64,000 bases of DNA from Thioalkalivibrio sp. XN8 (lineage in GTDB: Bacteria > Pseudomonadota > Gammaproteobacteria > Steroidobacterales > XN24): assembly GCF_011058255.1 (NCBI RefSeq), contig NZ_JAALFH010000060.1:1-64000 (forward strand), given 5' to 3'. A program made the translations under genes and the position numbers. The notes beneath the pieces are model-generated. The model did no database searches. It saw nothing but the letters and a program-made list of their open reading frames with translations, and was not told the origin of the DNA. Shown here piece by piece: positions 22,018 through 27,050 of the stretch; position 1 is the stretch's first letter, and the number at the start of each line of letters is the position of its first letter.

Positions 22018-24345
22018 ATGAACAGCTCCGTCACCATCCCGGCCCGGCAGGGCGGCACGACACCGGCCGAGAGCCGGCTCTCCGCGCTGCTCGACGCCAC
22101 CCCCGACGCGGTGGTGCTGATCGACGGCAGCGGCGTGATCGAGACCTTCAACCCCGGTGCCGAGCGCATTTTCGGGTACCGCTCGGACGAGATCGTCGGC
22201 CGGAACATCTCGCTGCTGATGCCGAAGCCGTTCCAGGCCAATCACGACGAGTACATCCGCCGCTACCAGCGCACCGGCGAAGCCCGCTTCATGCTGGCGC
22301 CGCGCGAGGTCGAGGCCTGCCGCAAGGACGGCACGGTATTCCCGGCCGAGGTGTCCGTCGGCCAGGTGGACGCCGAGCCCGGCCGCCTGCCCAGCTTCAT
22401 CGGCATCATTCGCGACATCAGCGAGCGGATGGACGCCGAGGCCCGCCTGCACCAGGTCGAGGCCAACCTGGTGACGGCCCAGTCGCTGGCGCATGTCGGC
22501 AGCTTCGAAGGCGACTGGCCCGCCGCCGAGACGAACTTCTGGTCCGACGAGTTCTTCCGCATCGCCGGCATCGACCCCGCGACGGGACCGATGGGCCCGC
22601 GGGAATTCGTGCGCCGCTTCGCCCACCCGGAGGATCGCGAGCGGGTCGAGGCGCGTCTCGCGGAAGACGTCCGCAAGGCTTCCGGTGGCGGCGAGCTGGA
22701 GTACCGGATCATCCGCCCGGACGGCACGGTGCGGCACATCCAGACGATCTACCAGATCGTCCCGGACCCGGCGACCGGGGCGGGACGCATCCAGGGCACC
22801 ATCCTCGACCAGACCTTCCGCCGCCAGGCGGAGGAAGCGCTGCGCCGCGAGCGCGACCGCGCCCAGCGTTATCTCGACCTGGTGAACGTGATGATCATCG
22901 CGGTGGACCGCTACGGCCGGATCACCCTGGTCAACCGCAAGGCCTGCGAGCTGTTCGGCTGTCCCGAGCACGAGATGCTGGGCAAGGATTTTTTCGCCAC
23001 CTGCCAGCCGCCGGGCTTTGCCGGGCGTTCCCGGATCCTGTTCGAGGAAGCGCTGGCGGGCCGGGAGGCGGGCTTCAGCCTGCTCGAGGGCCCGGTCATC
23101 TCCCGGGACGGGCATACCCGCCGCGTGTTCTGGCGCAACCAGTTCCTGCGCGACGAGACCGGCCGGATCAACGGCGTGCTCAGCGCCGGCGAAGACGTCA
23201 CCGAGCAGCGCGAGACGGAGTCCCAGCTGCGCCAGGCCGAGGAAGAGCTGCGGCTCATCTTCCGCCGCGCGCCGGTGGGGATGGCGACCCTGGCGGCGGC
23301 CCACGAGGTCGACGGCCATTACCTCTCGGTCAACCAGGCGCTGTGCAACATGCTCGGCTACACCGAGGGCGAACTGCTGGCCCGCTCGGTGCGCGACGTC
23401 ACCCCGACCGAGGACATGGCCGAAACGCAGCGCCAGTTCCGGCTGCTGCTGACCGGCGGCGACACGGTGAAGTACGAGAAGCGCTTCTTCCACAAGGACG
23501 GTTCGATCGTCCATGCCATGGTTCACCTCAGCGTCATCGCGGATCATGCCGGGCGGCCGTCGCTGATCGTCAGCCAGATCCTGGACCGGACCGACGTGGT
23601 GCTGGCGGAGATGGAAGCCCGGCGGCAGCGCGAGCGCCTCGCCCACGTCGCCCGGCTGGGCACCATGGGCGAGATGGCGGCCGGCATCGCCCACGAGCTC
23701 AACCAGCCGCTGGCGGCCATCGCCAATTACACCCAGGCCTGCCAGCGCCTGCTCGCGGCGGGCGACATGGACCCGGAGGAACTCGGCCAGGTGCTGGGCC
23801 GTGTCACCGGCCAGGCGCGCCGCGCCGGCGACGTCATCCAGCGGCTGCGCGCGTTCGTGCGCCGCCACACCCCGGACCGCCGCAACCGCGACGCCAACGA
23901 GCTGATCCACGAGATCCTGCCGCTGGTGGAAATGGACTGCCGCTCGCACGAGGTCGAGCTGGAACTGGCGCTGCAGGAAGACCTGCCCCGGGTGCAGGTC
24001 GACGGCGTCCAGCTGCAGCAGGTGTTGCTCAACCTGACCCGCAACGCGGTCGAGGCGATGAACGCCTGCGAGCCGGACACCCGGCGCCTCGAAATCCGCA
24101 CCCGCTGCAGCGGGCAGGACGAAGTCGAGATCTGTGTCGAAGACGCCGGGCCGGGCGTCCCCGATACCCTGCTCGAGCAGCTGTTCGAGCCGTTTTTCAC
24201 TACCAAGCCCGAGGGCATGGGCCTCGGGCTGTCGCTGAGCCGCTCCATCATTGAAGCGCACGGCGGCACATTGCGATACGATTCTGCCCCGGAAAAAGGC
24301 AGTATTTTCCGGATCGGGCTGCCCACGGCACCGGAGGAGGAGTGA
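22018..24345 (+). CDS. FixL-like multi-PAS sensor histidine kinase, probable heme PAS
   Basis: The 775-residue soluble kinase has four PAS domains (about residues 18-140, 145-265, 280-400, 405-530) and a HisKA/HATPase core with His559 in IAHELNQPLAAIANY. No membrane segment is visible. PAS1 aligns without gaps to the heme pocket of Bradyrhizobium FixL: His76 in ANHDEYIRRY matches the proximal heme histidine, Arg82 matches the propionate-contacting Arg, and Arg96 matches the oxygen-binding Arg220. It probably senses O2 and phosphorylates the FixJ-like regulator encoded by the next, overlapping gene. Heme binding is inferred. Confidence 0.9.
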   Translation: MNSSVTIPARQGGTTPAESRLSALLDATPDAVVLIDGSGVIETFNPGAERIFGYRSDEIVGRNISLLMPKPFQANHDEYIRRYQRTGEARFMLAPREVEACRKDGTVFPAEVSVGQVDAEPGRLPSFIGIIRDISERMDAEARLHQVEANLVTAQSLAHVGSFEGDWPAAETNFWSDEFFRIAGIDPATGPMGPREFVRRFAHPEDRERVEARLAEDVRKASGGGELEYRIIRPDGTVRHIQTIYQIVPDPATGAGRIQGTILDQTFRRQAEEALRRERDRAQRYLDLVNVMIIAVDRYGRITLVNRKACELFGCPEHEMLGKDFFATCQPPGFAGRSRILFEEALAGREAGFSLLEGPVISRDGHTRRVFWRNQFLRDETGRINGVLSAGEDVTEQRETESQLRQAEEELRLIFRRAPVGMATLAAAHEVDGHYLSVNQALCNMLGYTEGELLARSVRDVTPTEDMAETQRQFRLLLTGGDTVKYEKRFFHKDGSIVHAMVHLSVIADHAGRPSLIVSQILDRTDVVLAEMEARRQRERLAHVARLGTMGEMAAGIAHELNQPLAAIANYTQACQRLLAAGDMDPEELGQVLGRVTGQARRAGDVIQRLRAFVRRHTPDRRNRDANELIHEILPLVEMDCRSHEVELELALQEDLPRVQVDGVQLQQVLLNLTRNAVEAMNACEPDTRRLEIRTRCSGQDEVEICVEDAGPGVPDTLLEQLFEPFFTTKPEGMGLGLSLSRSIIEAHGGTLRYDSAPEKGSIFRIGLPTAPEEE

Positions 24346-24980
24346 TGGCGTCCAACGAGGCAACGGTTTTCATTGTGGATGACGACGAGGCGGTCCGCGA
24401 TTCGCTGGGCCTGCTGTTGCGTTCGGTCGGTTACCGGGCCCGCTGTTACGCCAGCGCCAAGGATTTCCTGAAAGCCTTCGATCCACGCGACTACGGCTGC
24501 ATGGTGCTCGATATCCGCATGCCCGGCATGACGGGGCTGGAGCTGCAAAAGCACCTGTCCGAGATCGGCTGCAACATCCCGATCGTGTTCATCACCGGCC
24601 ACGGCGACATCCCGATGGCCGTGGAGGCCGTGCGGCTGGGCGCCGTGGACTTCCTGCAGAAGCCCTTCGAAGACCAGGAACTGGTCGATCGCATCAATGA
24701 CGCCCTCAGGCAAGCCGCCGAGCAGCGCGAAGGCGAGCTCGAGCGCCTGGAGATCCTCGACCGCATCGACAGCCTGACCGCGCGCGAAAAGCAGGTCATG
24801 GGGCAGGTGGTGCTGGGCAAGGCGAACAAGGTCATCGCCGGGGACCTGGGCGTCAGCCAGCGGACGGTGGAAATCCACCGCGCCCGCGTGATGGAGAAAA
24901 TGCAGGCGAACTCCCTCGCGCACCTGGTCCGGATGGTCATGGTCGCCGAGGCGCAGGGCACCCCCCCGCCCGCGGCTTAG
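24345..24980 (+). CDS. FixJ-like response regulator (REC-LuxR HTH)
   Basis: The 211-residue regulator has a receiver domain with phospho-acceptor Asp56 in VLDIRMPGMTGLEL, the Thr in FITGHGDIPMAVEA and the Lys in FLQKPFEDQEL. A LuxR-type helix-turn-helix follows (LTAREKQVMGQVVLGKANKV, then GVSQRTVEIHRARVMEKM). This is the FixJ/TodT layout. The ATG at 24345 sits inside the kinase stop (GTGATG) with GGAGGAGG just upstream. In FixLJ systems the regulator activates fixK, but no intact fixK is found nearby. Confidence 0.93.
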   Translation: MASNEATVFIVDDDEAVRDSLGLLLRSVGYRARCYASAKDFLKAFDPRDYGCMVLDIRMPGMTGLELQKHLSEIGCNIPIVFITGHGDIPMAVEAVRLGAVDFLQKPFEDQELVDRINDALRQAAEQREGELERLEILDRIDSLTAREKQVMGQVVLGKANKVIAGDLGVSQRTVEIHRARVMEKMQANSLAHLVRMVMVAEAQGTPPPAA

Positions 24981-25107: not shown

Positions 25108-25515
25108 ATGGCCCCAGTCTCGGGAAGTATCGCTGAGGCACAACAGGCGACGATCTGCGTCGTAGCCGGTGACCCCCGGGAGCGGGAATCACTGTCCCAC
25201 CTGTTGAGCCACCTGCAGCATCCGGTCAGCGCCTTCGCCTCGGCGGAAGCGCTGCTGGAAGAAGTGGACCCGACGCACATAGGCGTGCTGGTGGTCGATC
25301 TGGAGCTGCCCGGCCAGGGCGGTGTGGAGCTGCTGCAGGCGCTGCGGGCCCGCGGCTGCCCCGCCCCCACCATCATGCTGGCCGGTGAATCCGACGTCGC
25401 CACGGCCGTCGGCGCGATCCGCGCCGGGGCCATCGACTTCATCCAGAAGCCGGTCATCGACCGCATCCTCCTGCGCCGCGTGCGCGACGCGCTCGAGCAG
25501 CAGCCCGCAGCCTGA
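25108..25515 (+). CDS. Single-domain response regulator, FixJ-receiver type
   Basis: The 135-residue protein is a lone receiver domain resembling the FixJ receiver: Asp64 in VLVVDLELPGQGGVELLQAL, then MLAGESDVATAVGAIRAGAI and FIQKPVIDRILLRRVRDALE. The first acidic pair is replaced (VVAGDPRERE), so phosphorylation may be altered. It has no output domain. It lies 127 bp after the FixJ-like gene and may compete for phosphate from the FixL-like kinase, like FixT-type or sink regulators; this is inference. Confidence 0.82.
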   Translation: MAPVSGSIAEAQQATICVVAGDPRERESLSHLLSHLQHPVSAFASAEALLEEVDPTHIGVLVVDLELPGQGGVELLQALRARGCPAPTIMLAGESDVATAVGAIRAGAIDFIQKPVIDRILLRRVRDALEQQPAA

Positions 25516-25627: not shown

Positions 25628-26761
25628 ATGCAGTTCCTTGTCCGTTTGGTGATCACCCTGGTCGTCATCGTCGTATTGGCGGTGGCCGGCCTGCGCCTGT
25701 GGTTCGGCGACGGCGGCACCTACAAGGACCTGACCACCCAGCCGGCGATCGGGGAGCCCGGCCTCGAGACCGTGCTCGAGCACGGCTCGCCCATCGGCGC
25801 CGTCGCGGTGAGCGCCGCGGGGCGGATCTTTTTCGCCACTCATCCCGACATCCCCGTGACGGGTCCCCGGGTATTCGAATGGCGTGACGGCGAGGCGCGG
25901 CCGTTCCCGGCCGCCGCCACGCAGGCGAACCTCCTGGACACGCCGGCGGGGCTGGTCGTCGACCGGTTCGAACGCCTGTGGATCATCGATCCGGCGCGCC
26001 ATGGCCTCGGGCGGCCGCGGGTGGTGGCGGTCGATCTCGCCAGCGGGCTGGTGACCCACGAGCATGTCTTCCCGCGCGAGGTCGCCCCGCGCGGCTCCTT
26101 CCTCCACGACCTGGAAGTCGATCCTGCCGGCCGCATGGTTTTCATCGCCGACACCAGCGTGTGGCGCAAGACTCCGGCCGTGGTGGTCTACGACTCGCTG
26201 ACGCGCGAGTCGCGCCGGCGGCTGGAGGGGCACACTGCCGTCCGGGCCCAGGACTGGGTGCCCGGAACCAAGGTCCGCGAACTGCGCTATCTCGCCGGCC
26301 TGGTGCCGTACAAGCCGGGCCTGCACGGGCTGGCCCTGGACCCGACCGGCCGCTGGCTCTACCTGGCCGCCATGGCCAACGACACGCTCTATCGCGTGCC
26401 GGCCGCGACCCTGGCGGACCCCGCCGTCGGCGACGGCGAACTCGCCGCGGCGGTGGAGCCCGCCGGAGTGAAGCCGCTGAGCGACGGCCTGGTGGCGGAC
26501 CTTGCGGGCAACGTCTTCGTCACCGACGTGGAACACGGCGCGGTGCTGCGCCTCGATCCCGCGGGCCGGCTCCAGACCATCGTCCGCTCGCCGCGCATCC
26601 GCTGGGCGGACAGCCTGTCCTTCGGCCCCGGCGGCTGGCTCTACCTGTCGGACAGCGCCCTGGCCGAGACCCTGTTGCAGACGCCCGGGACGGTGGACGA
26701 CCGCGCGCCCTACCGGGTGTTGCGCTTCCGCCCCGGCGCCGTGGCCGCGCAGGCGCAATGA
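25628..26761 (+). CDS. Membrane-anchored MRJP/SMP-30-like beta-propeller protein
   Basis: The 377-residue protein has one N-terminal membrane segment (FLVRLVITLVVIVVLAVAGL). A propeller related to the major royal jelly/Yellow protein and gluconolactonase groups follows, with repeated blades such as GLVVDRFERLWIIDPARHG, LHDLEVDPAGRMVFIADTS and GLALDPTGRWLYLAAMANDT. Substrate and role are unknown. It is probably periplasmic. It precedes the FNR-type promoter region and may be transcribed separately. Confidence 0.75.
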   Translation: MQFLVRLVITLVVIVVLAVAGLRLWFGDGGTYKDLTTQPAIGEPGLETVLEHGSPIGAVAVSAAGRIFFATHPDIPVTGPRVFEWRDGEARPFPAAATQANLLDTPAGLVVDRFERLWIIDPARHGLGRPRVVAVDLASGLVTHEHVFPREVAPRGSFLHDLEVDPAGRMVFIADTSVWRKTPAVVVYDSLTRESRRRLEGHTAVRAQDWVPGTKVRELRYLAGLVPYKPGLHGLALDPTGRWLYLAAMANDTLYRVPAATLADPAVGDGELAAAVEPAGVKPLSDGLVADLAGNVFVTDVEHGAVLRLDPAGRLQTIVRSPRIRWADSLSFGPGGWLYLSDSALAETLLQTPGTVDDRAPYRVLRFRPGAVAAQAQ

Positions 26762-26800
26762 GTCACGCCGGCTAGGGACTTTCCGCAAAAGGCCCGGAAC

Positions 26801-26842
26801 TTGACCCGAGTCAATATCCCCGGTCGCCGGACGCCCTATAAA
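26801..26842 (+). promoter_or_regulatory. FNR/FixK-type box with class II spaced -10 element
   Basis: TTGACCCGAGTCAA (26801-26814) fits the core TTGA-N6-TCAA of FNR, ANR, Dnr and FixK sites and is a perfect inverted repeat around its centre. TATAAA at 26837-26842 is centred 32 bp downstream, exactly the distance expected if the box sits at -41.5 as in class II activated promoters. The predicted start is near 26849. The regulator cannot be named from the site alone. Confidence 0.75.
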
Positions 26843-26848
26843 TAATCC

Positions 26849-26990
26849 CGGCAGTCGAGACCATAGGGAAGTGGCACCGGCCGGCACGCCATGGAGGCAT
26901 TGTCGGCCGGTCTTTCCCGCAGCGGTCCCGGCTCCCGACACTCTCCTCTTGGTTTAGGCCCTCGTGACGCAAGCCCGGGGGCCTTTTTCT
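26849..26990 (+). ncRNA. Candidate FNR-controlled small RNA or attenuated leader
   Basis: From the predicted start to the terminator lies about 140 nt with no convincing reading frame. It holds a strong hairpin, ACCGGCCGGCA pairing with TGTCGGCCGGT (26876-26886 with 26901-26911). Next comes a pyrimidine-rich single-stranded stretch including CTCTCCTCTT (26941-26950), able to pair with ribosome-binding sites, then an intrinsic terminator. This layout matches a trans-acting sRNA of the FnrS kind. It could equally be the leader of the downstream operon with read-through. I know of no matching RNA family. Confidence 0.5.
26956..26988 (+). terminator. Intrinsic terminator inside the acs operon leader
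   Basis: AGGCCCTCG pairs with CGGGGGCCT (9 bp, one U-G pair) around an 11-base loop and is followed by TTTTT then CTT. It lies downstream of the FNR-type promoter and 100 bp upstream of the ligase start codon, so it would end a short transcript or attenuate the operon. Confidence 0.7.
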
Positions 26991-27050
26991 TGGGCGTCCG
27001 TAATTGTCCGCAGGGCATTCCCGGCGTGGCCGGACTAACCTCGATGGTAA

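Follow-up and report, generated by a model that had tools for sequence, protein, structure and literature searches.

A window of 64 kb, the whole stretch of DNA that was analysed, lies on contig 25 of a 3.1-Mb genome and is predicted to carry a small RNA gene of about 142 nt (26850-26991; all coordinates below refer to the forward strand of the window), which is previously undescribed and nearly unchanged in the three species of the genus that were checked. Its product is most probably a stand-alone, trans-acting small RNA activated by FNR at low oxygen. The promoter layout, the transcript boundaries, the hairpin, the unpaired seed, the terminator, the independence from the neighbouring operon and the presence of FNR and Hfq genes are supported by sequence comparison. 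We infer the actual transcription, activation by FNR, dependence on Hfq, repression and the targets, in the following way. When oxygen falls, FNR, a [4Fe-4S] oxygen sensor, would activate a sigma-70-type class II promoter, with FixJ at about -70 as a possible second input, and the transcript would end at the small RNA's own terminator. Together with Hfq, the CU-rich stretch of the RNA would pair with purine-rich ribosome-binding sites of mRNAs that are dispensable at low oxygen, and this pairing would block their translation.

The putative promoter consists of an FNR/FixK-type box, TTGACCCGAGTCAA (26801-26814), and the -10 hexamer TATAAA (26837-26842). The two are separated by 22 bp, and the coordinates and spacing confirmed the distance of 32 bp from centre to centre given in the preliminary description, which had recognised here a class II arrangement. 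With a start at 26849 the centre of the box falls at -41.5, the class II geometry; the start is placed at 26849/26850. The pattern TTGAYNNNNRTCAA occurs once in the 64 kb compared with 0.05 times in shuffled sequences, and the box followed by a correctly spaced TATAAW was found once in the window and in none of 100 shuffles. In the two relatives from the same genus the orthologous boxes are TTGACCCGGGTCAA and TTGATCCTGGTCAA, with the half-sites kept and the spacing identical. The distance of 22 bp between box and -10 is the same in all three species, as are all seven bases of TATAAAT.

The predicted transcript begins with a long imperfect 5' hairpin (26850-26936), the first 13 nt of which, GGCAGTCGAGACC, are identical in the three species. 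It is followed by an unpaired CU-rich stretch, CACTCTCCTCTTGGTTT (26939-26955, 17 of 17 positions identical), which is a candidate anti-Shine-Dalgarno seed, and by an intrinsic terminator (26956-26991) with its stem at 26957-26983 and the U-rich tail TTTTTCTT. The folding energy calculated for 26849-26990 was -69.5 kcal/mol compared with -56.3 kcal/mol for shuffled sequences (z -3.75), the RNAs of the two relatives gave z values of -3.8 and -4.1, and the fold is common to the three species. The candidate seed, CACUCUCCUCUUGGUUU, is predicted to be largely single-stranded in the three RNAs (mean unpaired probability 0.83-0.84). The terminator is visible both in the sequence and in the fold, and a simple terminator scan listed none at the small RNA, presumably because the stem is interrupted. 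Thus the three structural parts which had been proposed earlier, namely a transcript of about 140 nt with a strong 5' hairpin, an unpaired CU-rich stretch and an intrinsic terminator with a U-run, could all be recovered.

The block was searched for in 97 genomes, including its own and those of relatives, and was present elsewhere only in two further species, both of the same genus (G001 and G002). Over 26772 to about 26991 the identity was 85% and 79% in these relatives, and the alignment did not extend past the edges. The identity among the three species is distributed very unevenly. The functional parts are 75-100% identical overall: the upstream element 88%, the FNR box 79%, the -10 and the first 13 nt 100% each, the inner hairpin 83%, the CU stretch 100% and the terminator 81%. 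The diverged segments are the spacer between box and -10 (36%), the part before the start (17%) and one flank of the hairpin (20%); the identity is 10% past the terminator and 59% over the 3' end of the coding gene that precedes the unit. Such a distribution is the pattern that would be expected of an RNA gene together with its promoter. No base pair in the stems was changed on both sides among the three orthologues, since three sequences are too few for this. The preliminary description had proposed that a new small RNA is expressed from a class II promoter of the FNR type, and had made this proposal depend on the conservation of box, hairpins and terminator in relatives. Both relatives from the genus keep all of these, and this conservation of the unit, together with an encoded FNR that has the [4Fe-4S] cysteines, supports the proposal.

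A small coding gene or a dual-function RNA was considered and rejected: G002 has AAG in place of the ATG at 26891, indels break the frame, and no small ORF is conserved across the three species. Since the indels do not come in threes and there is no shared start codon, the unit is not a coding gene.

The three RNA sequences were used to build a covariance model, which was run over 396 genomes of the order, with a closer look at the family. The RNA was found only in this genus and in none of the family's other genera or elsewhere among these genomes, so that the covariance-model search proposed earlier was positive at the level of the genus and negative outside it. The weak matches from outside the genus that were read are terminators or other sequences which look unrelated. 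The core pattern ACTCTCCTCTTGGTTTNGG gave nine matches in the named genome collection. One of them, in a beta-proteobacterial MAG, was rejected as an orthologue because it sits in coding DNA; the other eight (Flavobacteria and relatives, and one Rickettsiales MAG) were scanned for an FNR box only and look like chance. The upstream gene is found in the more distant relatives G003, G012 and G026, and no such RNA follows the gene there. In other genera of the order (G050, G160 and G077) terminators were seen with a loop of the (G)ACGCAAG or GCGCAAG type, like that of the small RNA's terminator.

At the gathering threshold, Rfam detected only two tRNAs in the 64-kb window. The FnrS covariance model gave no match at this threshold in the window and none at E<=1 around the RNA in the three species. 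A permissive Rfam search around the RNA in the three species yielded only sub-threshold matches, both through the CU stretch and the terminator: BjrC68 (23 bits, threshold 39) and RF02278, the Betaproteobacteria toxic small RNA (24 bits, gathering score 50). The weak likeness to RF02278 lies in a CUCCUC-rich stretch before the terminator, but the score is far below the gathering score and the first stem of that family is not formed here.

PhrS of Pseudomonas aeruginosa, which is Anr-dependent and carries a small ORF, resembles the present RNA as a low-oxygen small RNA under FNR/Anr activation, here a predicted one, but no ORF is conserved in our case and there is no Rfam match. The FnrS of Neisseria is also named AniS. 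The class II FNR site at -41.5 of E. coli FnrS has its counterpart in the short stand-alone RNA predicted here. So have the parts of Neisseria FnrS, which was described as functionally equivalent to FnrS, namely a class II FNR site followed by a 5' stem-loop, an unstructured region and a terminator (PMC3032703). However, no sequence or covariance match to FnrS of Escherichia coli and other Enterobacteriaceae was obtained, and both the neighbours and the candidate seed differ; in comparison with Neisseria FnrS, there is no Rfam match, and the RNA here adjoins fixLJ and its promoter region contains another conserved element farther upstream. The designation "FnrS-type" used in the preliminary description therefore holds for the layout and not for relatedness, which lacks an Rfam FnrS match. 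The small RNA appears to be new and restricted to its genus, resembling FnrS RNAs in layout with no detectable relationship to any of them. Few lineages are known to have FNR-dependent small RNAs (Enterobacteriaceae, Neisseria and Pseudomonas), and these apparently had separate origins. The gene described here would add a conserved and apparently independent example. Since its genus has both FNR and FixLJ, the gene offers a means of asking whether small RNAs that respond to oxygen have evolved repeatedly as a solution, and whether two systems of oxygen sensing act on one RNA gene.

The genome encodes an FNR with four cysteines and the motif ETVSR, which we take to be the ligands of the [4Fe-4S] cluster and the recognition helix, respectively, from what is generally known of FNR. 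Among solved structures, those nearest to it belong to FNR-type regulators (E about 1e-52), the score with the NCBIfam Fnr subfamily model was 217.7 bits, just under the cut-off of 228, and the fnr gene has its own box upstream. FNR itself is the most likely activator, one candidate among several. It is not the sole one, since each genome of the genus contains 8-10 CRP-family genes. The half-sites of the box, TTGAC/GTCAA, are one step off the ideal TTGAT/ATCAA, so a relative of the FixK/DNR type could be the activator.

We consider it possible, with a rather modest chance, that FixJ or such another CRP/FNR-family protein (FixK/DNR-like), for which the number of CRP-family genes also speaks, is the main activator of the promoter in place of FNR, and that the RNA belongs to a FixLJ cascade. 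In all three species the gene order is fixL, fixJ, a receiver-only protein, an NHL gene and the RNA, so that the RNA is located inside the fixL-fixJ cluster. The conserved neighbours, which lie outside the RNA unit, are a fixL-like PAS sensor kinase (22018-24345), the fixJ response regulator (24342-24980), the receiver-only protein (25108-25515) and, directly upstream of the RNA, an NHL/SMP30-like membrane-anchored protein (25628-26761), named by eye and with no NCBIfam match. FixJ scored 263 bits, above the NCBIfam FixJ equivalog cut-off of 255, and is 93-94% identical in the relatives. A candidate site for a FixJ-type response regulator is the conserved upstream element CTAGGGACTTTCCGCAA (26772-26788, about -77 to -61; core CTAGGGACTTTCCGCA, 26772-26787). 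It has 88% of its columns identical in the three species, about as conserved as the FNR box, between flanks with 10% (26762-26771) and 58% (26789-26800). Published FixJ sites are GTAGTTTCCC and GTAMGTAG, from in vitro selection, and TAAGTAATTTCCCTTA of S. meliloti fixK (PMC4999443). The -70 element shares by eye 10 of 16 positions with the last of these, and we infer from this that it may be a FixJ site. A looser copy of the -70 element, GGCGGAAATTACCTA (L045, contig C27 of G001, 455-469), is close to the S. meliloti site when that is read backwards, and in G001 it stands immediately before a pair of genes, the first NsrR-like and the second FNR-like. Against a promoter driven mainly by FixJ or a FixK/DNR-like protein, it is the FNR-type box that holds the activating -41.5 position, and the resemblance is a modest one, to the site of a distant species within a consensus that is unsettled and disputed (PMC4999443).

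With one change allowed, the -70 element was found at one orthologous place in the own genome (G000) and in G001. There its reverse complement, TGCGGAAANTCCCTA, precedes by about 42 bp the presumed start of a further non-coding stretch, also conserved and about 260 nt long, which has single-base indels and a strong terminator and gave no Rfam match at E<=1 (L084, 1501-1825, contig C30 of G000, with the site at 106803-106817; L086, 1501-1820, contig C29 of G001). This stretch may be a further unannotated RNA that shares its regulator with the small RNA.

Returning to the RNA activated by FNR, its mode of action would depend on the seed and on the partners that the cell provides. Hfq and CsrA are both encoded in all three genomes, and the presence of Hfq agrees, as does the U-rich tail of the terminator, with a small RNA that would depend on Hfq. 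The CU stretch, unpaired and invariant, could mask ribosome sites of the AGAGGAG type. The number of ATG-proximal AGAGGAG sites was 32, 29 and 13 in the three genomes compared with 18, 17 and 17 for the reversed pattern, which is no more than expected of ribosome sites. A limited scan of these ATG-proximal sites in the three genomes revealed no convincing conserved target; such a scan has little power, since AGGAG is an ordinary ribosome site. The AGAGGAG site common to the three genomes, before a ccmE-like gene, was rejected, since it lies partly within the end of the gene before it and its pairing is weak. A probable secreted-protein gene has its start region, AATCAATCAAGAGGAGTCAAATAATG, identical in two species (contig C17 of G000, position 163142, and contig C23 of G001, position 98369; L129 and L137), and CAAGAGGAG within it offers nine bases complementary to the CU stretch, which makes it a target candidate; no such site was seen for G002 among the matches listed.

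That the RNA binds CsrA/RsmA through two ANGGA motifs, either titrating CsrA at low oxygen or having its pairing remodelled by it, seems rather unlikely. The first motif (26865-26869) is AGGGA, ATGGA in the relatives, and lies mostly paired in the lower hairpin. The second (26891-26895) is ATGGA, AAGGA in G002, and is a candidate CsrA contact, fully exposed (unpaired probability 1.0) in a 5-nt loop on a GCC/GGC stem, GCC-ATGGA-GGC. The three species all retain both motifs and differ within them only at the free N position, which, together with the csrA product in each genome, favours CsrA binding. There is also precedent in E. coli, where CsrA is bound by FnrS, SgrS and McaS, which behave as weak sponges, FnrS being reported as a potential one (PMC10729762). 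However, two motifs, one of them mostly paired, are few for a sponge, dedicated ones having many more (22 GGA motifs in CsrB; PMC10729762), and CsrA binding gives no role to the CU stretch, the most conserved part of the RNA. Quite unlikely as a whole is the combination of a dual oxygen-sensor promoter (FNR at -41.5 and FixJ at about -70), an RNA that acts both through the CU seed and through CsrA binding, and a second, longer RNA under a FixJ-like element. If true, such a dual-sensor, dual-action RNA would link oxygen sensing to carbon-storage control.

It had also been suggested that the RNA is the leader, and possibly an attenuator, of a dehydrogenase operon. Concerning position this was correct: an operon for acetate-CoA ligase, as the first gene, then PDH E1 alpha, E1 beta and E2, and ACP (27089 to about 32219, outside the RNA unit) begins on the same strand, with its start codon (27089) 97 bp past the terminator, and a simple scan saw no separate operon promoter. 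The role of a 5' leader whose terminator controls read-through into the operon is, however, very improbable. The operon is found at this place only in the species of the window, between the RNA and an M48 peptidase gene, whereas in G001 and G002 the M48 gene, on the opposite strand, follows the RNA, and the RNA is kept unchanged through its terminator. Furthermore, no alternative anti-terminator fold is evident. Since the right edge of the operon joins the end of the M48 gene as in G002 (91% over 45 bp), the operon is probably a later insertion in this lineage, at the 3' end of the M48 gene. Read-through into the operon is possible in this one species, but it could not be what preserved the RNA. 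The natural misreading of the small RNA as the leader of the adjoining dehydrogenase operon is thereby corrected. That there is no RNA gene at all and the conserved block only terminates transcription from both sides, that of the NHL gene and that of the M48 gene, which are convergent in the two relatives with the terminator between them, is hardly credible, as it leaves the conservation of the FNR box, its exact spacing, the -10, the first 13 nt and the CU stretch unexplained.

Apart from the RNA gene, a repeated sequence, TGGGGACTGTCCCCA, was noticed. More than 40 copies of it are present in the own genome (for example on contigs C27, C9 and C38), often as inverted pairs about 25 bp apart, and the matches listed for the relatives included one for G001 and none for G002. 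It is apparently a REP-like repeat family which was expanded in one species.
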